Assembly: GCF_900156435.1 (NCBI RefSeq)
Contig: NZ_FTPQ01000003.1
Location: forward strand, 372,001-436,000
DNA: 64,000 nucleotides
Source: Microbacterium sp. RU1D
Lineage (GTDB): Bacteria; Actinomycetota; Actinomycetes; Actinomycetales; Microbacteriaceae
Direction: 5' to 3'
The notes below the pieces were generated by a model. It saw only the letters and a program-made list of their open reading frames with translations. It was not told the DNA's origin and searched no databases. The position numbers and the translations under genes are program-made. Positions 1-9,444 of the stretch are shown here, in pieces (the first letter of the stretch is position 1; each line of letters starts with the position of its first letter).

Positions 1-162
1 CAGGACGATAGCCACCGCGGCCGTCAACGCACCTAGCACGCCGGCGGCAGGGCCGAGGTTGGCCAGGGCGGTGAACGCGGTTGCCAACCCGAGTACCAAC
101 CCGGTGACCAGCCAGATAGTTGGCCACCGCAGCGGCTTCTTCGATTTGTGCCCCTCTGACAT
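1..162 (-). CDS. Small membrane protein, 3' end outside window
   Basis: The minus strand reads 54 open codons from an ATG at 162 to the window edge, so the carboxyl end is missing. A basic start (residues 5-12, KSKKPLRW) leads into one hydrophobic segment (about 15-34) and the start of a second (about 37-54), as in a small integral membrane protein. TATTGT lies six bases before the ATG, so the mRNA may be leaderless. Function is unknown. It diverges from the coiled-coil gene at 286 and may belong to the same accessory region. Confidence 0.55.
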   Translation of the reverse strand, partial: MSEGHKSKKPLRWPTIWLVTGLVLGLATAFTALANLGPAAGVLGALTAAVAIVL

Positions 163-244
163 CTCGCCACAATAGCGATGTTCGCAACGAGGCCACGCGC
201 CACGTCCGCCCTTCGCATCTCCGCTCGATGTCCGATGCCCTCCA

Positions 245-285
245 TACGATGAAGTGAGACGCAGACTCACTGGGGGAGAGTATTC
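245..285 (+). promoter_or_regulatory. Possible promoter, inverted repeat and RBS of the 582-residue gene
   Basis: TACGAT (245-250) resembles a -10 element. It is followed by the inverted repeat AGTGAG-N7-CTCACT (253-271), a purine-rich RBS GGGGGAGAG (272-280) and the ATG at 286. No convincing -35 was found. The inverted repeat is placed where a repressor could act, but that is inference. Confidence 0.35.
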
Positions 286-2034
286 ATGGCACTTGGCTAC
301 CGGACCATCCTGACGGCTGACCCCGTCGAGGAGAATCTCAGCGAGATGATTCGAGCTTTCCGCGGTTGGGTCACGGGAAAGAAGGGTTACGACGAGCTCC
401 CCTCGTCGGGCGTCGTAACTCATCCGAGCGGCGCCACGATCACTGCTTCCGCTTACACCAACAGCGACGGCAGTATCAGCGCCAAGCGTTGGCGAATCGT
501 AGAGGACTGGGCGCCGCCCAAGTGGTACGACAATCCGGATACCTCACGCACCGGCGTGACCAACGTGACCCTCGCCCTTGCCGAGAACAAGCTGTGGCTG
601 TGGGTAGACGTCGAGCCTCCAACACTTCTGTGGACTAACTCCAATGGTCGCGAAGTCGAAGAAGTCCAGATGAGTGGGCGCCCCACGTTCGTGCAGGACA
701 TTCTCAACGCTGTGAACATGAAAGACGGAGGCGCCGAGCCAGTTTCGGAGTTCCAAGTCATCGCGAGCGAGAGCCACGTGGAAGAGCTTGCGCGCGTCCT
801 CGTGGACTCAGCACGTATTGGCGCTGTGTTCGTCGCGGCCACTCCCGAAGGCGGAGACGCTACCGAGTGGGCTGAAAAAGTCACCAAACTCGCTGGACAA
901 ATCCAAGGTATGGGGATCGGGTACGCGCTCACTCCGGAAGCGCGAGCCCTCTTCAACCGCCGTTACGGCGGCGCCGGTCACTGGGTATCGCCAGGCGCCA
1001 TGCGCACCTTCCTCCCAGGAGCCGATCTCAGTGACCGGCAAGACGCCTTCAAACATCGCCTTCTTCACGCATCCACGCTGCGCGACTCCCCCGAAGCTCG
1101 CATTCGTCGCATTCTCCGCAACGCGCAGCTGAAGCGCCTCAGCGCTCTCCGCATCCCGGATGTTCTGCGGGAGGTCGATTACGAGTTCCTCCGCAACGAA
1201 CGCCTGCGGCCTTTCGCCGCTCTGCACCAGCCAGCCAGCGCCACGCAGATCGATGAGGACGAGGCCAGCGTATGGAGGGCCCTCGCCGAACTCGCGGAGA
1301 GCGAAGTGGCTAAAGGCCTCAATGAGAACAAGGCCCTCGCACAGCGTGCTTCGGCAGCCGAGGACTTCGTCGCTGAGTTGCAGGCCGAGAACGATGACCA
1401 ATACGCGCTTCTCACCAGGGTGCGAGAGGAAGCGGCCTCTCTCCTCCGCCAGGTCGATTACCTTCGACGCGCACTCACCAACCTCGGAGCGGAAGGCGCT
1501 GCGGCGGCGTGGTCGTTCGTTGACGAGGAGGGTCCCAGGGAGTACCCCGAGACCTTCGCGGAACTTCTTGATCGAGTGAAGGAGCTGACGGGGGTACGTT
1601 TCACCGGCGACATTGAAGACGCTCTCGAGCTGGACGAGCACACAGTTCTCGGTCAGGCCGCAGTCATGAAGACTTGGGACGCGCTTGTCACCTTCGACAC
1701 CTACTCACGCGCACGAAGCGACGCGAGTTTTGACCAGTCGCTGAGCCACTTCATCACCCACCAGAAGGATCACCCCCACCGCGTTCAGATCGGCAAGGTC
1801 GTCTGGTCAGAGGGCGAGACCGTGAAGTCCAACGAGAGGTTCCGAGCGCAGCGGACTCTGCCCGTGGACACGAAGGTTGATCCATCCGGGAAGGCCCTGA
1901 TGGTGGCCCACGTGAAGCTTTCGAACCTCACCGGAGTCGCGCCTCGGCTCTACTTCCTCGACACGTACTCCGCCGTCGGACATGTGACGGTGGGCTACCT
2001 CGGGTCCCACATGGACAACACCCTGACCAACTAG
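286..2034 (+). CDS. Unknown 582-residue coiled-coil protein of the accessory island
   Basis: I cannot name this family with confidence. The N-terminal part (1-150) is mixed alpha/beta. Residues about 155-265 contain a segment I recall from other uncharacterised actinobacterial proteins, including GAMRTFLPG. Residues about 322-395 are Glu/Ala/Leu-rich and look like a coiled coil. The last 80 residues form a separate domain ending in a strand-rich stretch (RLYFLDT then VTVGYLGSHMDN), a carboxyl-terminal pattern I have seen in other hypothetical proteins. There is no signal peptide or membrane segment, so it is probably cytosolic. The strong RBS GGGGGAGAG supports the ATG. GC is lower than in the flanking chromosome. 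It lies outside the repeat-bounded cassette that follows. Confidence 0.85.
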   Translation: MALGYRTILTADPVEENLSEMIRAFRGWVTGKKGYDELPSSGVVTHPSGATITASAYTNSDGSISAKRWRIVEDWAPPKWYDNPDTSRTGVTNVTLALAENKLWLWVDVEPPTLLWTNSNGREVEEVQMSGRPTFVQDILNAVNMKDGGAEPVSEFQVIASESHVEELARVLVDSARIGAVFVAATPEGGDATEWAEKVTKLAGQIQGMGIGYALTPEARALFNRRYGGAGHWVSPGAMRTFLPGADLSDRQDAFKHRLLHASTLRDSPEARIRRILRNAQLKRLSALRIPDVLREVDYEFLRNERLRPFAALHQPASATQIDEDEASVWRALAELAESEVAKGLNENKALAQRASAAEDFVAELQAENDDQYALLTRVREEAASLLRQVDYLRRALTNLGAEGAAAAWSFVDEEGPREYPETFAELLDRVKELTGVRFTGDIEDALELDEHTVLGQAAVMKTWDALVTFDTYSRARSDASFDQSLSHFITHQKDHPHRVQIGKVVWSEGETVKSNERFRAQRTLPVDTKVDPSGKALMVAHVKLSNLTGVAPRLYFLDTYSAVGHVTVGYLGSHMDNTLTN

Positions 2035-2046
2035 GTCAGGAGCGCG

Positions 2047-2206
2047 GGACGGGGCGCCGATACTTGCTATGACCATCCCCAGCCAGTTGGGTGTTGCTTA
2101 TAATACAAGGCTGGTCGAGTCGTTCGCGAAGTACGTCGCACCCTCGCTGGGCTGGGTACCGAACTGGGAAGGGCCCATCGCTAAGCGCGCGAACGTAACC
2201 AGCTGA
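2047..2206 (+). pseudogene. Left copy of a duplicated 3' gene end (attachment-site remnant)
   Basis: Immediately after the 582-residue gene, one frame reads DGAP, three residues, then a 29-residue stretch (2069-2155, starting MTIPSQLGV and ending VAPSLGW), a different 16-residue tail and TGA at 2204-2206. The 29 residues match 20 of 29 residues of the fragment at 6517-6603, without gaps. Neither copy has a gene body attached. I read this as the displaced 3' end of an unidentified host gene, duplicated when mobile DNA inserted. The parent gene is not recognised. Confidence 0.6.
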
Positions 2207-2296
2207 GGTCAGAGGACCTCCGCGACAGGACCGTCGGCTAACCGGTCCCGGACTGGGTGGGCGTCTAGAATCAGACAACGGTTCCGAGCGGGGGGG

Positions 2297-3196
2297 GTGT
2301 TTCGCGTGGGCACATCTGCCACTGGCGAGCTCGCCGCTCTCTCGCGACTATTCTCCCCCGCCGCCATACGCGAACTCAGCCAGAGCGGTCGTTCACCCCT
2401 TGTTGCTCGGTTACTACGAGACACTTCAATCCCGGCAGACCTTCCCGAAGGAGCGACGCTTCGGGATGCACTTGATCTCAGCTACTCCAAGCTGACAAAG
2501 ACCGGTAACAGGGACGACTACGTCTATCGGAGTTCGGTTGTTGAGAAGATTGCTCTTGGCCGACACAACCTTCGCACTGCGACCGTACTGAGCGAGGTGC
2601 GTGCGCGCGGGTCCAAGGCAGACCTCGTAATTCTTAACGGCACCGCCACGGCCTATGAGATCAAGTCAGAACGAGACTCGCTTAGTCGCCTACCTTCCCA
2701 GCTCAGCGACTACAGGTCTGTTTTCGCAAGCGTCACGGTAGTGACGAGCCTTCGTCAGAGGGATGCCGTCCTTCGGCTCGCTCCGGATGACGTCGGCGTG
2801 CTTGTGCTCTCTTCTCGTCTGCGACTCCAGGTCGTGCGCGAGACTCAGGACCTCCCCGGACGCATCGACCCAACGGCGCTCTTAGAGACTCTCCGCGCCA
2901 ACGAGGCAACACAAATACTTGAACGCATCGGAATCGAAACGCCGGACGTTCCCAACACTCGCCTTTGGGCGGAGCTGAGGAACCTCTACGCGACGCTTGA
3001 CCCAGCTGAGGTGCATCGGCACGCTGTGCAAGTGTTGAAGCAGAGCCGATCACGCGCAGCCCAGGAAGCGCACATGCGGACGCTTCCGCCCTCCATCAGG
3101 ACTGCGGCACTCTTCGGCGACCTGAACGGAAGCGCTCGCACGAACCTCTCCTCTGCTACCGGTACGTTGATGACGTCAGTGATGACCTGGAGTTAG
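2297..3196 (+). CDS. sce7726 family protein, PD-(D/E)XK nuclease-like
   Basis: The 299-residue protein matches the sce7726 family (named after a Sorangium cellulosum gene) in length and in the segments NRDDYVYRSS (71-80) and KIALGRH (84-90). Residues E100, D109, E121-x-K123 and Q135 (within ADLVILNG, YEIKSE and SQLSDYR) fit the D-Xn-E-X-K core of PD-(D/E)XK nucleases, so nucleic-acid cleavage is likely but not shown. The start is GTG at 2297 next to a run of seven G; GTG at 2306 is an alternative with better spacing. It is followed after 8 bp by the sce7725 gene, its usual partner. The reduced GC and missing integrase suggest cargo of a mobile element. Confidence 0.85.
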   Translation: MFRVGTSATGELAALSRLFSPAAIRELSQSGRSPLVARLLRDTSIPADLPEGATLRDALDLSYSKLTKTGNRDDYVYRSSVVEKIALGRHNLRTATVLSEVRARGSKADLVILNGTATAYEIKSERDSLSRLPSQLSDYRSVFASVTVVTSLRQRDAVLRLAPDDVGVLVLSSRLRLQVVRETQDLPGRIDPTALLETLRANEATQILERIGIETPDVPNTRLWAELRNLYATLDPAEVHRHAVQVLKQSRSRAAQEAHMRTLPPSIRTAALFGDLNGSARTNLSSATGTLMTSVMTWS

Positions 3197-3204
3197 GAAC
3201 GACG

Positions 3205-4137
3205 ATGTACTTTCCGTACTTTCGCGGCAAGCAGTTCGAGTTGATTGCGATCCGCGAGTGCGCGGCGGTCATCGCAGACGCCGGGTTCAATCCGATCATC
3301 GAGCCAGTTCGAGAGACCTTCAAGGGACTCCAGCGCACACTCGACGAGCTAATCCTCAAGGGTGCTAGCGCTGCGGTCATCGTGAACCCGCGACATGGCG
3401 ATCACAGAGACAGCAGCGAGATTCTGGCGCAGTACATGGCCGACAGCCACGGGGACAACGATGCAATCTCCCCGGCACTCCTCCTCACGAGCGACATGAC
3501 TGTGAACAATGTGCTCAGACTCGTCGAACCCTACGCTGAACGGCCACTCACCCTTGTGCATGGCGGATTCACCGACGGTAAAGCTCTCGCAGGCAATCTC
3601 CCGTCAGGTTCTGTCACACATGTCTTCCTCGATGCACGCAACACCCTTTACCGCCGTCCATTCAAGGGCGCACAGCGCATCCTGATCGAAGACGGGTTCG
3701 AACGTAAGAAGAACGCCGACTACGACTTCATCAACCGGTTCTCAGATCTCCACGTTACCTACGAAGAACTTGGCGGTGACGGTTACGGTGACTTCCTGAC
3801 TGTGGGTGACCACTACAGCGAGGGCGGCGGACCTGCGTACGCTGTCGCCATCCATTTGACATTCATCGACCCATCAAACGACGACGCAATGTTCGTTTAC
3901 CACTTCAAATCTGACTCGAACGACACCCCCGTCGACCCGGCCGGCAAGTTCGCACAGGCGCTCGCCAAACTCATTTCGGCGGTCGACGACCCAGCCTCAA
4001 AAATTCTCGCAACAACCGCTGTCGAAGAGTTCCGTGACCTGCACGAGCGCAAACACTTCCCAGGTCTCGGTTACGTCAAAAAGTTATCCATCAAGCATCA
4101 CATCGAGACCCTTGCCGACTACCACGCGAATGCCTGA
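3205..4137 (+). CDS. sce7725 family protein (Beta-protein-like)
   Basis: The 310-residue protein opens with MYFPYFRGKQFELIAIRE, the hallmark of sce7725 family proteins, which I recall as related to the Beta protein family. Alternating strands and helices with conserved short motifs (PIIEPV, VNPRHGD, FSDLHVTYEE, LTVGDHY) suggest a barrel-like fold, but no enzymatic activity is known to me. There is no signal peptide. AGGA six bases upstream supports the ATG. It is encoded 8 bp after the sce7726 nuclease and overlaps the RES-domain gene by 8 bp, so the three are almost certainly one operon and probably one functional unit. Confidence 0.85.
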   Translation: MYFPYFRGKQFELIAIRECAAVIADAGFNPIIEPVRETFKGLQRTLDELILKGASAAVIVNPRHGDHRDSSEILAQYMADSHGDNDAISPALLLTSDMTVNNVLRLVEPYAERPLTLVHGGFTDGKALAGNLPSGSVTHVFLDARNTLYRRPFKGAQRILIEDGFERKKNADYDFINRFSDLHVTYEELGGDGYGDFLTVGDHYSEGGGPAYAVAIHLTFIDPSNDDAMFVYHFKSDSNDTPVDPAGKFAQALAKLISAVDDPASKILATTAVEEFRDLHERKHFPGLGYVKKLSIKHHIETLADYHANA

Positions 4138-5173
4138 CCGACGCTGCTGCGCAACATGCTTCAATGATCGACACATCCGTGCTCAGCTGATCGACCAATG
4201 CGAACCGGTTATGCAGGATTGCGATTACTGCGGCATGGCAGGCGTGCTATGCGTAATCCCATCCAGACTGAGTCAATGGTTTGCCCCGCTCATCGCGACC
4301 TACAGCGAAGACCCTGACGGAGATTTCCTGGTCAGACACCTCATCAGCGAGTGGAGGATGTTCTCAAACGGAAGGCTGAGTGAAGCACAGGCAAAGGAGC
4401 TACTCGCGGACGTGCTGGACGATGGCGAAATTGTGCGCAGAAAGTTCACGCCCATCGCTCACCCGAGTGGTGGCAATCTTCACCGGTGGGAAGAGTTGCG
4501 CGACGAACTCATGCACAGCAACCGGTGGTTCCTTGAGGAACCCATGGACATGGATCGCTTGGCGGTCCTACTGGATCAACTCATCACCACACCCACCGCA
4601 CTTGAATTCAGCAACTGGTATCGTGCCCGCTTAATGACGAGCGACGATGCCTACCCGCTGACGGACATGGGCGCACCCCCGCGTCACAAAGCAGGTCACG
4701 GTCGAGCCAACCCCGCAGGCATCCCCTACCTTTACCTGGGATCAACTCAGGCAACCGCTGTCGCGGAGCTTCGCCCTCACACGGGCGAAAGGGCATGCGT
4801 CGCTCAGTTCGACCTCTCAGACGCAGACAACCTGAAGCTGGCTGACCTTCGAGACCCACGGTCCCTCATTTCGCCGCTGAGCGATGGCGATGAGACCCTG
4901 ATAATCGAACTTCGAGCTGACTTGCCGCTTCTGGAGCGCCTAGGCGAAGAGCTAACGCGCCCCGTTCAACCAAGCGGCGTCGCTTACGAATACGTTCCAA
5001 CGCAATACCTGTGCGAATACATCAAGAAAAAGGGTTTCGACGGGGTGTTGTACCGGAGTTCGGTTAGCAGCGATGACGGCGTAAATATCGCGCTATTCCA
5101 TCCAACCATCGCAACCGCGACCAAGCTCGACGTAGTGTCCGTCACACAGGTGACGGTGTCTATCGGTAGTTGA
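4130..5173 (+). CDS. HEPN/RES-domain protein, probable NAD+ phosphorylase
   Basis: The ATG at 4130 overlaps the sce7725 stop by eight bases and begins just before a zinc-ribbon-like pair (C7-x2-C10 and C31-x2-C34), the usual start of RES proteins with a HEPN/RES N-terminal domain. The frame stays open upstream, but that part is antisense in style and overlaps sce7725. The RES domain occupies about 185-345 and carries the name-giving residues in order: R192 (GRANPAG), E213 (AVAELRP) and S310 (LYRSS). Characterised RES toxins split NAD+ by phosphorolysis. In this cassette the protein could act as an NAD-depleting effector; that role is inferred. No antitoxin of the Xre type lies beside it. Confidence 0.85.
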   Translation: MPDRRCCATCFNDRHIRAQLIDQCEPVMQDCDYCGMAGVLCVIPSRLSQWFAPLIATYSEDPDGDFLVRHLISEWRMFSNGRLSEAQAKELLADVLDDGEIVRRKFTPIAHPSGGNLHRWEELRDELMHSNRWFLEEPMDMDRLAVLLDQLITTPTALEFSNWYRARLMTSDDAYPLTDMGAPPRHKAGHGRANPAGIPYLYLGSTQATAVAELRPHTGERACVAQFDLSDADNLKLADLRDPRSLISPLSDGDETLIIELRADLPLLERLGEELTRPVQPSGVAYEYVPTQYLCEYIKKKGFDGVLYRSSVSSDDGVNIALFHPTIATATKLDVVSVTQVTVSIGS

Positions 5174-5276
5174 GGCACGGGCTGGTGTGTCCACGGCCAA
5201 TCACCGCGGACGGAGTAACCTAGCGCTAGGGTCAACGGACCAGAGTCTCGGACGAAGACGGTTCAAGGGCGGGTTC

Positions 5277-6428
5277 ATGACCAGTGTCTCTACTACAGGA
5301 GTTGCGCGAGCCGGACGACCACCGGCCGCTCGCATAGGTGAGCCCACCGCGTACAACGGGCGCCCGATCGCTGCCGGAACTGGGTCGTTTAGGCATCCCG
5401 TCTCACCTCGTGCGTCGGTAGCCGACTTATGGTCGACAATGGAGATTGCGGCAGCAGCTGGCGAAACCGCTTTGCAGAAGGCCGGCGCGCCTTCCTTGGA
5501 TGTTGCCGCCAAACTGCGCCTCAGTGCTTACGTGCAGCAAGCCCGTCAGTATTACGAGGCGGCTATCCGGGCTGAGCCCATTGCTAAACCTCTTTTGGGC
5601 TACTACTTCGTCCTGAACGCAACTAAGGCGTATCTTACCCTCCTGAATCACCCGAATACGGCAACTCCGGGCATAAAACACGGGATCGGGCAAGATAATT
5701 CCCACCTTACGGGCCAGTATGAATTTTCGCAGGAATATCTGCAGATCCAAACAAGCGGCGTCTTTCACTTGCTCGCCGGAAATTCTGGTAGAGGTCACGT
5801 ATGGGGCGCAGGCGTAATGCAAGTATCGCGCCTCATTCCCTACCTGAACGAAAGCGTGGATCTATACGCTAGCGCCTTCAACAAGCGCCCTCTGCTTATA
5901 CCTATCGAGGACACGTTTATTCGCGCCAGTGGCAAGCGGCCGAACCGTTTTGCTTGGCTAGTTGTCGAAGTTTCTCGGTTAGCGTTACGTGAAGCTGACC
6001 TGTCGCCTAGGAAGTTGCTGGACGAAGCGGCGGCGTTCGCGGGTTCATTCGATCATGTTGAAAGCGACCGCGATGACGTGGTCCGGTACGAGTCAAAGGT
6101 TCCCGTGCCCTACTCAGCAATGCCGCTCGCGCTCCCGGGTCTGAGGCAGGCGTTCGATCGTTCTTTGATTTCACGTAACCGGACGCTCGCTCAGCCACGC
6201 GACAACATCGTCCGATCCCCGCACTTGGAACTGATTTCTGCGGAAGCGCTCACATTCGCAGTTATGCTCCACCTAAGCAACATGGTGCGCTACCGCCCTC
6301 ACCACGTCGAGCAACTCCGTGGGAGCAGCCAATGGTGGCTCTTTACAAGTTGGGTCGACAGAGCTTGCGAGAACTTTTTGCTCGCAATGTCATCACGTGT
6401 GTCGTTGGAAGAGCATCTTATTGAGTGA
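5277..6428 (+). CDS. YaaC-like protein
   Basis: The 383-residue protein resembles the YaaC family, mainly through the segment around ARQYYEAA, KPLLGYYFVLNATKAYL and GIKHGIG, helices typical of that family. Function is unknown; the helical, HEPN-like appearance of YaaC is my impression only. I chose ATG 5277, preceded by AGGGCGGG; GTG 5187 is an in-frame alternative that would add 30 residues of poor composition. The 103-bp gap to the RES gene is larger than within the rest of the operon, so it may have its own promoter. It is the last gene before the right-hand repeat copy and shares the lower GC of the cassette. Confidence 0.7.
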   Translation: MTSVSTTGVARAGRPPAARIGEPTAYNGRPIAAGTGSFRHPVSPRASVADLWSTMEIAAAAGETALQKAGAPSLDVAAKLRLSAYVQQARQYYEAAIRAEPIAKPLLGYYFVLNATKAYLTLLNHPNTATPGIKHGIGQDNSHLTGQYEFSQEYLQIQTSGVFHLLAGNSGRGHVWGAGVMQVSRLIPYLNESVDLYASAFNKRPLLIPIEDTFIRASGKRPNRFAWLVVEVSRLALREADLSPRKLLDEAAAFAGSFDHVESDRDDVVRYESKVPVPYSAMPLALPGLRQAFDRSLISRNRTLAQPRDNIVRSPHLELISAEALTFAVMLHLSNMVRYRPHHVEQLRGSSQWWLFTSWVDRACENFLLAMSSRVSLEEHLIE

Positions 6429-6480
6429 GATGTCGGAACGTGGCGAATCACAATCCCGGTCTCTGGCCTGGCCGCGTCGA

Positions 6481-6627
6481 GCTGCGAGACTTTCTCGACG
6501 GCGCCCCTTGCTTGCGATGGCGATCCCGAGCCAGATGGGCGTGGAGTTCAACCTCCGCCTCGTCGAGAACTTCGCGACGCACGTCGCCCCCGCGCTCGGC
6601 TGGCAGTCGACGCTCGCGACGGTCTGA
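6481..6627 (+). pseudogene. Right copy of the duplicated 3' gene end, frameshifted remnant
   Basis: After the YaaC gene the reading returns to high GC. One frame encodes VELRDFLDGAP and, after a one-base shift near 6505-6510, another continues MAIPSQMGV (from 6517) to VAPALGW (6603), ending at TGA 6625-6627. The 29-residue part matches the copy at 2069-2155 without gaps. A strong hairpin terminator follows, as expected for the native end of a chromosomal gene. The missing gene body should lie elsewhere, probably left of the window. I do not recognise the protein. Confidence 0.6.
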
Positions 6628-6639
6628 CCCGCTCCCCCT

Positions 6640-6683
6640 CGAACGGACCCGGATGACACCCCCTCGGCATCCGGGTCCGTTCG
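6640..6683 (+). terminator. 16-bp perfect hairpin after the gene remnant
   Basis: CGAACGGACCCGGATG (6640-6655) pairs perfectly with 6668-6683 around a 12-base loop. No T-run follows, as is common in high-GC actinobacteria. It marks the native end of the truncated gene and the right boundary of the accessory region. Confidence 0.7.
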
Positions 6684-6738
6684 TCGTCTCGCGCGAAGAC
6701 GTACGGTGAGGGGATGGCCGTCGAGCGGGCGATGCCGC

Positions 6739-7107
6739 TCAGCGCCAGGTCGTGATGCCGCGCGAGCGCGCGACCGTCTGCGACAGCAGGTATTCGCCCC
6801 AGGCCACCGCGTAGGCGCCGAGAGCGGCCCACACCCAGCCCGCGGGCAGTGCGCCGACCACACCCATCAGCCCCGCCACCGTGAGGGCGCTCACGACGAT
6901 CAGCACGGGGATGACGGCCCTGGATGCCGCGAGCGCGCTGTCGGAGCGCCAGATCACGAGCACGGCGCCGGCCGTGGCCAGCAGCAGGATGATCGGCGGC
7001 CACCACGACCCGAGTACCGCCATGGCGATCGACGATCCGACGCCCGCAATCCCGAGGGTCGCTGTGCGGAGGACGCGGATGCGTCGGGAACGGTCGACGG
7101 GTGACAC
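6739..7107 (-). CDS. Hypothetical four-helix membrane protein
   Basis: The 122-residue product starts at GTG 7107 with GGAGG five bases upstream; the frame is open further upstream but without an RBS. Hydrophobic segments at about 15-33, 36-52, 63-83 and 88-106 predict four transmembrane helices, with a short basic N terminus (DRSRRIRVLR). No family is recognised. It is the first intact chromosomal gene right of the island and diverges from the secreted glycosidase gene at 7334. Confidence 0.75.
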   Translation of the reverse strand: MSPVDRSRRIRVLRTATLGIAGVGSSIAMAVLGSWWPPIILLLATAGAVLVIWRSDSALAASRAVIPVLIVVSALTVAGLMGVVGALPAGWVWAALGAYAVAWGEYLLSQTVARSRGITTWR

Positions 7108-7333
7108 GGTGCCTCCAGAGGTGGGGGGATCCCAGCGTAACCGGGACGTTCGGGTGGGCCGGACGCCATGAGACCGTCCAGAGTCGCCGGAGATCGCGCC
7201 CGCCCCGCCGGGGACGCCCCGTAGCCTGGTAGCGACGGGGGCACGCGAGAGGCGGCCGCCTCCTCGGTCGACGTCGACACCGCGCAACGGGCGCATCGCC
7301 GCACGGCATCGGATCGAGAGGAGGCCGGTCGAA

Positions 7334-8761
7334 ATGGACGTCTCACGACGCGGGCTCCTCCTGGGCGGCCTCGGCGTGGTGGCCCTGGGCGCCGCGAGCG
7401 CCGCGGCGGCCACTGTGATCACCGCCGGCGCTTCCGACGAACCGGGCGCCGCACCCTCGGGCCGATCCTCCTCGGGAACCGCCTCACCGACTTCCACGGG
7501 TTCGGCGTCAGCCAGCCCGAACGCTCCCGAGGATCTCGATCTGCACGTGTGGGGCACCGTGCACCGCCCGCTCTCGAAGAACACGGACGCGACCCTGACC
7601 GTGATCGACGGCGCTCTTGCCGCCGGGCTGAGCATCACCGGTACAGCGCTCGCGGGCCGACTCACCGCCACCGGCGACTACGCCTTCACGATCGAGGTGC
7701 GCCGCGGCGACGATCGTCGGCGGCGTCGGTTCGCCGGCACCGTCGGCGCCATCACGCGCGATCTCAGCATCTCGCTGAGCCTCGACGACAAGACCCCGTT
7801 GTCGGTGACGGCGCGCGAACTCGACCGCATCGCGCGTCTCGGCGCCCACGCGACCCTCGTCGTGCTCTGCTACATCCCGGATGCCACCTCCACGACGTTC
7901 ACCCGGGTCTCCGACGACCGCATCCGCAAGGTCTTCGCGCTCGCGAAAGACCGGGGCGTGCGCATCACCCTGCTCAAGCCCCACATCGCCACCGAGCAGG
8001 ACGGCGACGGGTTCTACCGCGCGAATTACGCCCCGTCATCCGTCGACGGGTTCTTCTCGCGGTGGACCGAGCAGATGGTGCACTTCGCGGGCCTCTGCGC
8101 CGACAACGACATCGAGTACCTCTCGATCGCGTGCGAGCAGCCCGGTCAGACCGACGCCGCGCTCTACGCGAAGTGGGTAGACCTCGTCGAGACGGTGCGC
8201 TCGGTCGAACCCGCGGTGAACCTCACCGCCGCTTTCACCACCCTCGAGCTGTACCTGCTGCACACGTACTGGCTGCCCCAGGGCACCCCGCACATGGCGC
8301 AGCTTCTCGACGTGTTCGGCATCAACTCGTGGATCCGCCTGACCGACAAGGTCTACACCCCGTCGGCGCCGAACATCTCCGTCGACGAGCTCGCCGCCGG
8401 CTGGCGCGGGGCCGGCGGCCGCACCGACGACCACCTCGGCAAGCTGGAGGACGTGTGCCAGCGGCTGCAGATGCCCTTCCTGATCACCGAGGTCGGCGTG
8501 CAACCGCGTGTCGACGGTCTCGCGCAGCAGGAGGGCAGCGCACCCCCCACGGGGGCCGCGAACCACGACGTGCAGGCTCTGCTGTACCGCTCGATCCTGA
8601 AAGCGCCGCTGACGTCGTCCTGGTGCACCGGCGCGTCGATCTGGCACATGCGCGCCCCCTTCGCCTTCGGCGACGTCTACCACGACACCCTCTTCGCGGG
8701 CGAGAAGGTGCTGAAGGATGCCATCGCGAAGACCCCGTCGCTCGCGGCCCCGGCGACCTGA
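7334..8761 (+). CDS. Secreted clan GH-A-like glycoside hydrolase
   Basis: The 475-residue protein begins with a Tat-like signal (SRRGLLLGG, then an Ala-rich core) and a Ser/Thr/Gly linker (about 35-62), so it is exported. Residues about 68-145 look like a small beta domain. The rest resembles a TIM barrel of the GH113 or GH53 type, with segments such as LLKPHIATE and FGINSWIR. Two glutamates, E268 (SIACEQ) and E386 (LITEVG), sit where clan GH-A enzymes carry the acid/base and nucleophile. The substrate, perhaps a mannan-like polysaccharide, is not determinable here. GAGGAGG precedes the ATG. Confidence 0.7.
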   Translation: MDVSRRGLLLGGLGVVALGAASAAAATVITAGASDEPGAAPSGRSSSGTASPTSTGSASASPNAPEDLDLHVWGTVHRPLSKNTDATLTVIDGALAAGLSITGTALAGRLTATGDYAFTIEVRRGDDRRRRRFAGTVGAITRDLSISLSLDDKTPLSVTARELDRIARLGAHATLVVLCYIPDATSTTFTRVSDDRIRKVFALAKDRGVRITLLKPHIATEQDGDGFYRANYAPSSVDGFFSRWTEQMVHFAGLCADNDIEYLSIACEQPGQTDAALYAKWVDLVETVRSVEPAVNLTAAFTTLELYLLHTYWLPQGTPHMAQLLDVFGINSWIRLTDKVYTPSAPNISVDELAAGWRGAGGRTDDHLGKLEDVCQRLQMPFLITEVGVQPRVDGLAQQEGSAPPTGAANHDVQALLYRSILKAPLTSSWCTGASIWHMRAPFAFGDVYHDTLFAGEKVLKDAIAKTPSLAAPAT

Positions 8762-8778
8762 GCGCGTAACGTGGGCGG

Positions 8779-9144
8779 ATGCCGCACCACGCCCTCGCCC
8801 CTCCAGGTTCCGAGGTGACGCTGACGGGCGAGCTCCGCTGCGCCGACGCCGCGGAGCTCGACCGCGTCCTCACGCACCTGCCGGCGCACGTCGCCCTCAC
8901 CCGGGCCGAACCGGGATGCGTCTCCTTCGACGTCGATCCGACCGGTGACCCGTTGGTGTGGCGAGTCGAGGAACGGTTCGTCGACGAAGCGGCCTTCGAC
9001 GCCCACCAGCGTCGGGTCGCGGCGAGCACGTGGGGCGCCGAGACGGCCGGGATCGAGCGGCGTTACGAGATCCTCGGTCGGAGTCGGGATGCCGAGGCCC
9101 TCGACGCGGAGGCCGTGGCGGTCGAGACGGAGACCGCGCCCTGA
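8779..9144 (+). CDS. Antibiotic biosynthesis monooxygenase-like (ABM fold) protein
   Basis: The 121-residue protein has the dimeric alpha/beta-barrel pattern of small ABM or quinol monooxygenase-like proteins: EPGCVSFDV, then WRVEERFVDEAAFDAHQRR, then a helix ending ASTWG. The acidic tail after residue 100 is extra. A substrate cannot be assigned. TAACGT lies exactly six bases before the ATG and there is no good RBS, so translation from a leaderless mRNA is likely. It follows the glycosidase by 17 bp. Confidence 0.7.
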   Translation: MPHHALAPPGSEVTLTGELRCADAAELDRVLTHLPAHVALTRAEPGCVSFDVDPTGDPLVWRVEERFVDEAAFDAHQRRVAASTWGAETAGIERRYEILGRSRDAEALDAEAVAVETETAP

Positions 9145-9150
9145 GGCGAC

Positions 9151-9444
9151 TCAGCCGCCGACGGGCCGTTGCCTTCCGGCATCCCGCCCATGCGCCGCCT
9201 CGAACGCACGGATCGAGCGCCCCTCCCGCACCGCTCGACGCGCACTGAGAGCAACCACGACCCACCAGAATACGAGCCCGAACCAGCGCCACCAGGGCAC
9301 GTCACCGCCGTCGAGAACGACCTGGAGCGTCGTCCCCACCGCGAAGATCACGGACGCTGCCATCATCCACCTGCTCCACGCTCGAGCGCGTTCCAGGGTG
9401 AAGCGCTGCTGGATGAGCGAGGGAGCGCGTTCGACGGGGTGCAC
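9151..9444 (-). CDS. Hypothetical two-helix membrane protein
   Basis: I take GTG 9444, preceded by AAAGG, as the start of a 97-residue protein. After a basic N-terminal 30 residues come two hydrophobic segments (MMAASVIFAVGTTLQVVL and FGLVFWWVVVALSA) separated by GGDVPWWRW. No family is recognised. It is convergent with the ABM-like gene, only 6 bp away, and divergent from the epimerase-like gene. The frame is open much further upstream, but that part is antisense to the epimerase gene. Confidence 0.6.
   Translation of the reverse strand: MHPVERAPSLIQQRFTLERARAWSRWMMAASVIFAVGTTLQVVLDGGDVPWWRWFGLVFWWVVVALSARRAVREGRSIRAFEAAHGRDAGRQRPVGG

Follow-up and report, generated by a model that had tools for sequence, protein, structure and literature searches.

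Abortive systems built on SIR2 and TIR domains couple the consumption of nicotinamide adenine dinucleotide (NAD+) to infection. In the available sections of a 2024 study of the RES toxin NatT (PMC11535050), known NAD-targeting immunity is described as using TIR and SIR2, and a role in immunity had by that year been shown for none of the RES toxin-antitoxin systems; NatT itself is a RES toxin with a 'flap' that is harmless, and degraded, without its antitoxin. A Zn ribbon-HEPN/RES-NTD1-RES protein layout was described in 2013 among the proteins of conflict systems (PMC3710099, available sections). Here we describe a locus in a 64,000-nucleotide stretch of the Microbacterium sp. RU1D genome (contig NZ_FTPQ01000003.1, our G000:C4:372001-436000, hereafter the window), in which genes of the sce7726 and sce7725 families are followed by a gene for a RES-domain protein. 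Judged from sequence and genomic context, and with moderate confidence, we consider window 2297-5173 to be a mobile three-gene cassette that is most likely an anti-phage system with an abortive-infection arm.

The cassette resembles the RES-Xre modules NatRT, MbcTA and ParST in having a RES domain with conserved active-site residues, but differs in that its RES protein also has a cysteine cluster and a putative HEPN/RES-NTD1-like region, and is accompanied by two unrelated partners and no recognised Xre. Membership of a RES-Xre module was considered and rejected, the protein scoring 15.3 bits with the toxin model NF049844 against a cut-off of 110 and no Xre antitoxin being recognised: the neighbours of the RES gene in the window are sce7725 and a YaaC-like gene, and sce7725 lies just upstream of it in all 80 related loci described below, where the downstream side had no Xre profile run on it. 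The HEPN/RES-NTD1 proteins of the 2013 description appear to have the same layout; its table passages make no mention of a fixed link to sce7725/sce7726, and a full-text search found neither name in the paper (PMC3710099). With the SIR2 and TIR systems the likeness is a works-like comparison only, since the NAD-consuming fold is different. The NCBIfam sce7726 and sce7725 families, whose cut-offs the window proteins far exceed, include the RES partner in neither model.

These genes have been listed together before. An eight-gene integrative element of Pseudomonas aeruginosa PA_HN002 includes RES, sce7725 and sce7726 (PMC9394441), and the legend to a figure of an island in Delftia TR1180 gives RES, an 'ATP-binding protein' that is perhaps sce7725, and sce7726 (PMC8248536); the available text of neither article proposes a function. 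By proteomics, a sce7725 protein was more abundant in aminoglycoside-resistant Escherichia coli isolates, unlinked to known genes (PMC8203672, available sections). The available text of a selection from the E. coli pangenome describes PD-T4-9 as a three-gene toxin-antitoxin-chaperone system (PMC9519451), and a full-text search of that article returned neither sce7725 nor sce7726. The five open-access full texts that name either family, some of which simply list the proteins, give no function in the passages concerned, subscription and bioRxiv reports lying outside the search. As far as these searches reach, the cassette is a candidate defence operon whose type of effector had not previously been connected with immunity.

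Relatives were collected by scanning species genomes with an alignment of 12 sce7725 proteins, which gave 538 stretches and 426 relatives, the best 80 loci being kept; 45 of these are at least 20 kb long, and two (L055, L056) represent one strain. Neighbouring genes were sought with profiles of the window genes plus four relatives each, and YaaC with the window sequence alone. In all 80 loci sce7726 lies upstream and RES downstream of sce7725 on the same strand, with near-full-length matches for sce7726 in 78, sce7725 in 79 and RES in 73. The seven short RES genes comprise three cut by contig ends (L032, L042, L101) and four that are apparently broken (L039, L057, L072, L084); L076 has a cut sce7726 and L084 a broken one, and sce7725 has an in-frame stop in L104. 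Of the 71 loci in which all three genes are near full length, 37 have a 7-bp gap between sce7726 and sce7725, and in 66 the RES gene either overlaps sce7725 or begins within 9 bp of it, starts being profile starts. The distance matrices of the three proteins over these 71 loci are correlated at r = 0.883, 0.875 and 0.885, the largest value among 500 permutations being 0.21. A tree of the joined proteins, made by a quick method and with some rows from metagenome bins, places 15 actinobacterial rows together, mixes alpha-, beta- and gammaproteobacteria, and joins one Nitrospinota and four Acidobacteriota rows to the proteobacteria, a pattern as would be expected for transfer of the whole unit. 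Trio records (all three genes) span Actinomycetota, Pseudomonadota, Acidobacteriota and Nitrospinota, again with some metagenome bins.

Wider sampling found the same three genes. Among 398 genomes of the host family, sce7725 occurs in 14, and 9 of the 13 other than the window's own genome have the trio. Three carriers (two new) were found among 396 genomes sampled from the phylum and four (two new) among 398 from the phylum of a Burkholderia genome; the four new carriers all have the trio, one of them cut by a contig end. In E. coli the cassette is present in 18 of 5426 genomes. The conserved unit is sce7726-sce7725-RES, co-inherited in fixed order and on one strand. The first-pass annotation of this DNA had proposed a four-gene set that ended with the YaaC-like gene. 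Its naming of that gene is upheld (PF14175, E = 2.5e-24, 86.7 bits against a cut-off of 27), and the co-occurrence it called for was found for the first three genes, but YaaC is in none of the 80 related loci. A four-gene unit was accordingly rejected: YaaC is also missing from all 13 other carrier genomes of the family (within the 19-20 kb fetched), and the close relative in G329 lacks it. It was found in two of 299 family genomes searched (the window's own, and a weak match at 6e-4), and a YaaC profile search of plasmids gave no match. YaaC is a local passenger and not a component of the cassette.

The sce7726 protein matches NF033832 at E = 2.2e-48 (164.6 bits, cut-off 70, residues 72-251), which places it in that family, and has a PD-(D/E)XK core at about residues 70-190 flanked by helical N- and C-terminal parts. 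The nuclease motif originally read from the single sequence (E100, D109, E121, K123) is invariant in 58 aligned sequences. All four residues are kept in 18 of 19 diverse rows, which include two-gene forms (sce7726-sce7725 without RES); the exception is a solo copy on a Mycobacterium plasmid that is without the first motif residue. Its AlphaFold model (predicted local distance difference test, pLDDT, 96.5) matches 3dnx (Z 9.2, root-mean-square deviation (rmsd) 4.6 over 142 residues), the PaqCI structure 8em1 (Z 8.6, rmsd 3.7 over 134), XisH proteins (Z 6.9 for 2okf, rmsd 2.9 over 104, and Z 6.8) and NucS 2vld (Z 6.5, rmsd 3.3 over 96), and we take 3dnx and XisH to be PD-(D/E)XK folds; a plain Foldseek search of the model gave no match at E <= 0.001. 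Carrying this motif on the modelled core fold, sce7726 is a predicted PD-(D/E)XK nuclease. Two CagY chains that matched its helical tail in a search of solved-structure sequences (E about 8e-4) were taken as chance. The protein also matches the PADLOC model 'cll' (PDLC02989) at 2.3e-21; the system behind this name could not be established, and a PADLOC author may, through it, already be listing sce7726 relatives as defence candidates.

The sce7725 protein was initially described as having no assigned function, and this description stands: it matches NF033831 at E = 1.9e-97 (326.7 bits, cut-off 60, residues 2-306) and belongs to that family, and the model descriptions of both families name no function. 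Its AlphaFold model (pLDDT 93.3) matches many unrelated TIM barrels at Z of about 11-12 (for example 3wfl, Z 12.1, rmsd 3.5 over 209), so that the predicted fold is an alpha/beta (TIM) barrel. An enzyme assignment on the basis of fold was tried and dropped, dozens of unrelated PDB barrels having tied scores from which no family stands out. Twenty-six columns are invariant in 65 sce7725 sequences; among them, E33, N61, D163, D196, H217, H233, S236, K248 and K292 are also invariant in all 17 rows of a wider set that includes two-gene forms, four of which have Y at R7. E33, N61, D163 and D196 follow strand ends and would therefore lie on the usual active-site face of the barrel, as placed from the predicted strand order rather than from coordinates. 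Beta_protein (PF14350) matches weakly in 4 of the 65 relatives. One viral structure model, of an uncharacterised protein of the Gordonia phage Powerball, matches sce7725 (E 1.4e-8, template-modelling score 0.63), and a search of solved-structure sequences gave chance-level matches for sce7725 (E 0.4-0.6) and none for RES.

The RES protein matches PF08808 at 9e-21 (75 bits, gathering cut-off 23.2), with the domain at residues 174-331. It is laid out as an N-terminal C7/C10/C31/C34 cluster resembling a Zn ribbon, a putative HEPN/RES-NTD1-like middle and a C-terminal RES domain. HEPN_RES_NTD1 (PF18870) is matched by 28 of 53 aligned relatives (best 3.5e-5), the window protein itself giving no match at E <= 1, and the RES domain is found in all 53. 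The residues R192, E213 and S310, which the first-pass annotation had called intact, are invariant in the 53 aligned sequences and in all 91 rows of a wider set made of near-full-length copies (a few genomes repeated, broken copies left out); in those 91 rows Y202 and R215 are identical too, and C34 differs in two. We infer from family membership that the protein is a predicted NAD+ phosphorylase.

The first-pass annotation had also anticipated enrichment near known defence genes, and this was observed. For each of 25 loci, the products of the three closest genes upstream and the two closest downstream were compared with PADLOC at E <= 1e-10; these 125 flanking proteins match 182 PADLOC models, whereas 121 control proteins match 2. 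Controls came from 10-kb regions of the same contigs, at 65-90 kb from the cassette, with positions fixed before their content was seen, and were taken for 30 of 36 genomes (the six omitted being mostly contig-end loci); the 25 loci scanned do not include L026, L099, L027, L086 and L063. The 25 models listed among the 182 include GajA, GajB, KwaB, AriA, PtuA, AbiLi, REase II and III, MTase II, PDC-M01A and PDC-M11A, of which the AAA-type matches (GajA, PtuA, AriA and AbiLi, with two members each) may come from one and the same set of proteins. Of the two control models, mad2 is matched by 2 control proteins (and by 3 flanking proteins) and the other, of GlgB type, by 1. In each of the five E. 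coli loci opened, out of 18, the cassette belongs to the same type of mobilizable element, which encodes a relaxase and tyrosine recombinases; fim genes are close by in two of the five. The other cargo of this element varies: caspase/TIR/cyclase genes with a reverse transcriptase in one locus, a KwaB-like gene in two, a KwaB-like gene with a caspase/TIR/Pycsar effector in one, and SIR2 with phospholipase D in one. BREX and AbiE genes are also present in one of the KwaB-like loci, and type I restriction-modification genes in the Pycsar and SIR2 loci. A Salmonella copy is in an integrative conjugative element, near a caspase-like gene.

Plasmids and phage-like contigs carry the cassette as well. 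Thirteen plasmid records have sce7725; of the seven opened, four are trios and one has a sce7725 cut by IS3 and no RES. The nine closest plasmid relatives of RES (at least 50% identity) all adjoin sce7725 by position, one of them only a remnant. A sce7725 scan of viral contigs gave 11 loci, seven with RES (in pieces in L126), three with sce7726-sce7725 only and one with fragments, and a sce7726 scan gave ten more equal-scoring trio contigs (nine of 73-82 kb, one of 33 kb), most of its remaining matches being two-gene forms. In L217 the trio lies between a tail-fibre gene and a transposase gene, which suggests that the contig is from a Mu-like phage. L229, a contig with genes for a major head protein and a primase, has a sce7726-sce7725 pair beside an integrase.

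A candidate role in defence is proposed because the three genes are in fixed linkage, their predicted catalytic residues are conserved, they are carried on mobile DNA and known defence genes lie nearby. In the mechanism that we favour, the sce7726 nuclease and sce7725 barrel would form a core that recognises infection and cuts nucleic acid, sce7725 sensing a phage-specific feature or processing a ligand in its conserved pocket; the pair is taken as the core because it also exists alone. The Zn-ribbon/HEPN-NTD/RES protein would be an added arm, inactive until the core triggers it, and once triggered would cleave NAD+ with phosphate and so stop the infected cell; activation of RES by the core on infection is the favoured arrangement. 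Its most far-reaching version, possible but tentative in our estimation, is that this would be the first RES-effector immune system, its core sensing phage nucleic acid or a modified nucleotide and switching on RES, with the result that DNA is cut and NAD+ emptied; the two-gene form would then be an ancestral nuclease-only version to which RES was added.

The defence reading must be tempered by several observations. The 80-of-80 linkage comes from a scan whose seed was mostly trios, so that trio relatives were favoured, and the 182 flanking matches are counts of redundant PADLOC models and not of proteins, obtained with a crude gene caller. Four of the 13 other family carriers have sce7726-sce7725 without RES (L013, L014, L015 and, with sce7725 broken, L016/L017), and partial forms go further, with an Enterococcus plasmid that has sce7725 but no RES and no profile-detectable sce7726, and plasmids of Staphylococcus aureus and Mycobacterium that by annotation have sce7726 without sce7725. 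The two-gene form means that RES is not needed in the wider family, and NAD depletion cannot be the whole story. RES is also found broken more often than its partners (in 4 of 80 loci, compared with one each for sce7726 and sce7725, plus one E. coli frameshift annotation), and may be dispensable or costly. Tests of NatT with more than 50 phages showed no phage phenotype (PMC11535050, available sections). Finally, reasoning from neighbouring genes does not tell phage defence apart from action against plasmids or from the upkeep of the carrying element.

An addiction module, with RES as the toxin, sce7725 and sce7726 as its antidote and a stabilising effect on the plasmids and integrative elements that carry the cassette, would suit both that carriage and the fact that RES domains are best known as RES-Xre toxins (PMC11535050, available sections), but we think it unlikely. 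No Xre gene is recognised alongside, the RES/Xre-toxin score falls far short (15.3 bits against 110), and the putative antidote pair exists without RES. Two natural mutants bear on the same point: a Glutamicibacter plasmid (L021) has a RES with intact residues beside which sce7725 is only a remnant next to IS6100, and in Billgrantia (L104) such a RES persists although sce7725 is broken by its in-frame stop. Because intact RES persists in both, it is not obviously a free-running toxin held by its partners; the mutants argue only mildly, because NatT, a RES toxin, is likewise harmless and degraded after loss of its antitoxin (PMC11535050, available sections), and an antitoxin model may still apply to them.

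It is less probable still that two separate defence functions, a sce7726-sce7725 nuclease system and an independent RES, are simply packed together. The pair does occur alone in actinobacteria and prophage contigs, and plasmid RES relatives without sce7725 are known at 26-31% identity; against this, order and strand are the same in every one of the 80 loci, spacing is tight in the 71 measured, the correlated distance matrices indicate that the three proteins share one history, and the nine closest plasmid RES relatives adjoin sce7725 or its remnant. The explanation to which we give least credence is that the cassette serves element upkeep or the exclusion of incoming plasmids and competing elements, with no effect on phages. 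PD-(D/E)XK-class nucleases can also act on plasmids, and the cassette does reside on integrative elements, plasmids and islands, but phage-like contigs carry it too, and in E. coli it has phage-defence genes as neighbours, which vary from strain to strain.

If the anti-phage reading is right, two protein families known at present by locus-tag names only would gain a role. A fixed operon of RES, nuclease and barrel among defence genes offers a direct test of whether RES proteins act in immunity, and the E. coli copies (18 of 5426 genomes) make that test possible in a standard phage host.

Table 1. Features of the cassette and its surroundings, in window coordinates
Feature	Position	Strand	Match or remark
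sce7726-family gene	2297..3196	+	NF033832
sce7725-family gene	3205..4137	+	NF033831
RES-domain gene, 347 aa	4130..5173	+	PF08808
YaaC-like gene	5277..6428, open reading frame open from GTG 5187	+	PF14175; passenger outside the conserved unit
Middle LLM-oxidoreductase tail copy	2048..2155	+	87% over 94 nt to the gene's present 3' end; junction between tandem inserts
Right LLM tail copy	6497..6627	+	tail-peptide identity to congeners; end of inserted DNA
HEC-07-like gene	286..2034	+	PADLOC candidate-defence model PDLC04161, 3.3e-20; cargo of the neighbouring insert, outside the cassette

A check of the window's open reading frames located all four genes where they had first been placed, on the forward strand, and the close packing reported for the first three was likewise seen: sce7726 and sce7725 are 8 bp apart, and the RES ATG at 4130 overlaps the sce7725 stop. 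The gap from RES to YaaC is 13 bp if YaaC starts at GTG 5187 and 103 bp if it starts at the first in-frame ATG, 5277, which may be the start instead. The G+C content is 56.5-60.4% in 1-kb bins from 2 to 6 kb, 61-63% from 1 to 2 kb and 65-77% after 6 kb; the 'low GC' of the first-pass annotation holds in that the 2-6 kb bins lie below their flanks, but is low relative to this genome only. No sigma-70-like promoter was found in window 2000-6700, terminator-like matches there were at chance level, and Rfam gave no match in window 1-9000.

The locus had been called repeat-bounded, and imperfect repeats do bound it, at 2048-2155 and 6497-6603, 71% identical to each other over 108 nt. They are copies of the 3' end (last 30-40 codons) of an upstream oxidoreductase gene that we take to be of the luciferase-like (LLM) class, whose present end is at contig position 371265, 0.74 kb before the window. 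The tail peptide of the right copy shares 84-92% identity with LLM tails from six congeners and 62-81% with those from 23 others, but 65% with the gene's present tail; the DNA after window 6636 directly abuts the LLM stop in two congeners (L131, L132), at 68-69% over about 400 bases. On these comparisons the right copy is taken as the ancestral chromosomal 3' end of the LLM gene. From these tail identities and congener junctions we conclude that about 7.4 kb was inserted at the LLM 3' end as two tandem units. The first has the HEC-07-like gene and a 355-residue minus-strand protein of no clear family (from window 423 to before the window), with sub-threshold matches to domains of unknown function (DUF) only; the second has the sce7726-sce7725-RES cassette and YaaC. 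No integrase was found among the scanned open reading frames of the 7.4-kb insert, short frames being outside the scan.

In G329, which is of another genus, the same cassette without YaaC is found in locus L161, with 80% DNA identity over window 2265-5176; it lies just after an LLM gene, and a weak match to that gene's tail (43%, E 3e-4) follows the cassette. In G050, whose contig contains the Plantibacter locus L027, the cassette is just upstream of an LLM gene instead. The arrangements in L161 and G050 indicate that the cassette without YaaC is the unit that moved.

Several minor observations accompanied these results. Tandem inserts that each end in an LLM tail copy (G000:C4:371265-378627), seen together with the LLM-adjacent cassette in the other genus (L161), make it possible that the LLM 3' end is an integrase-less defence hotspot in this bacterial family. 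In one congener (L175, in G416, 9231-9323) another LLM tail follows the LLM gene at a distance of about 0.5 kb and resembles the scar of a lost insert. Of the 125 nearest flanking proteins of the 25 loci, 3 match GMP synthase and 2 match IMP dehydrogenase in Pfam, which suggests that the cassette inserts repeatedly at guaA/guaB.

A prophage-like region of the E. coli plasmid pSTEC1024_3 (L111, 6004-7639) has a small sce7726 gene convergent with a gene annotated 'beta family protein', perhaps a diverged two-gene form in the opposite orientation. Distant RES relatives, about 26% identical over 93%, are present in L114 and many of 294 plasmid records, on enterobacterial plasmids; on the one plasmid of this kind that was opened, the gene has partition genes on one side and umuDC-type genes on the other, and sce7725 is absent. 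A link between the cassette and NADAR, a family of proteins that act on ADP-ribose-type compounds, was considered and rejected: 4 of 36 trio genomes have NADAR, and two have it close to the trio, but these two trios are near-identical and were treated as one lineage. In both, the NADAR gene lies within about 3 kb after the cassette (G470:C1:670742 and G466:C47:5773), as it does in the published Delftia island.

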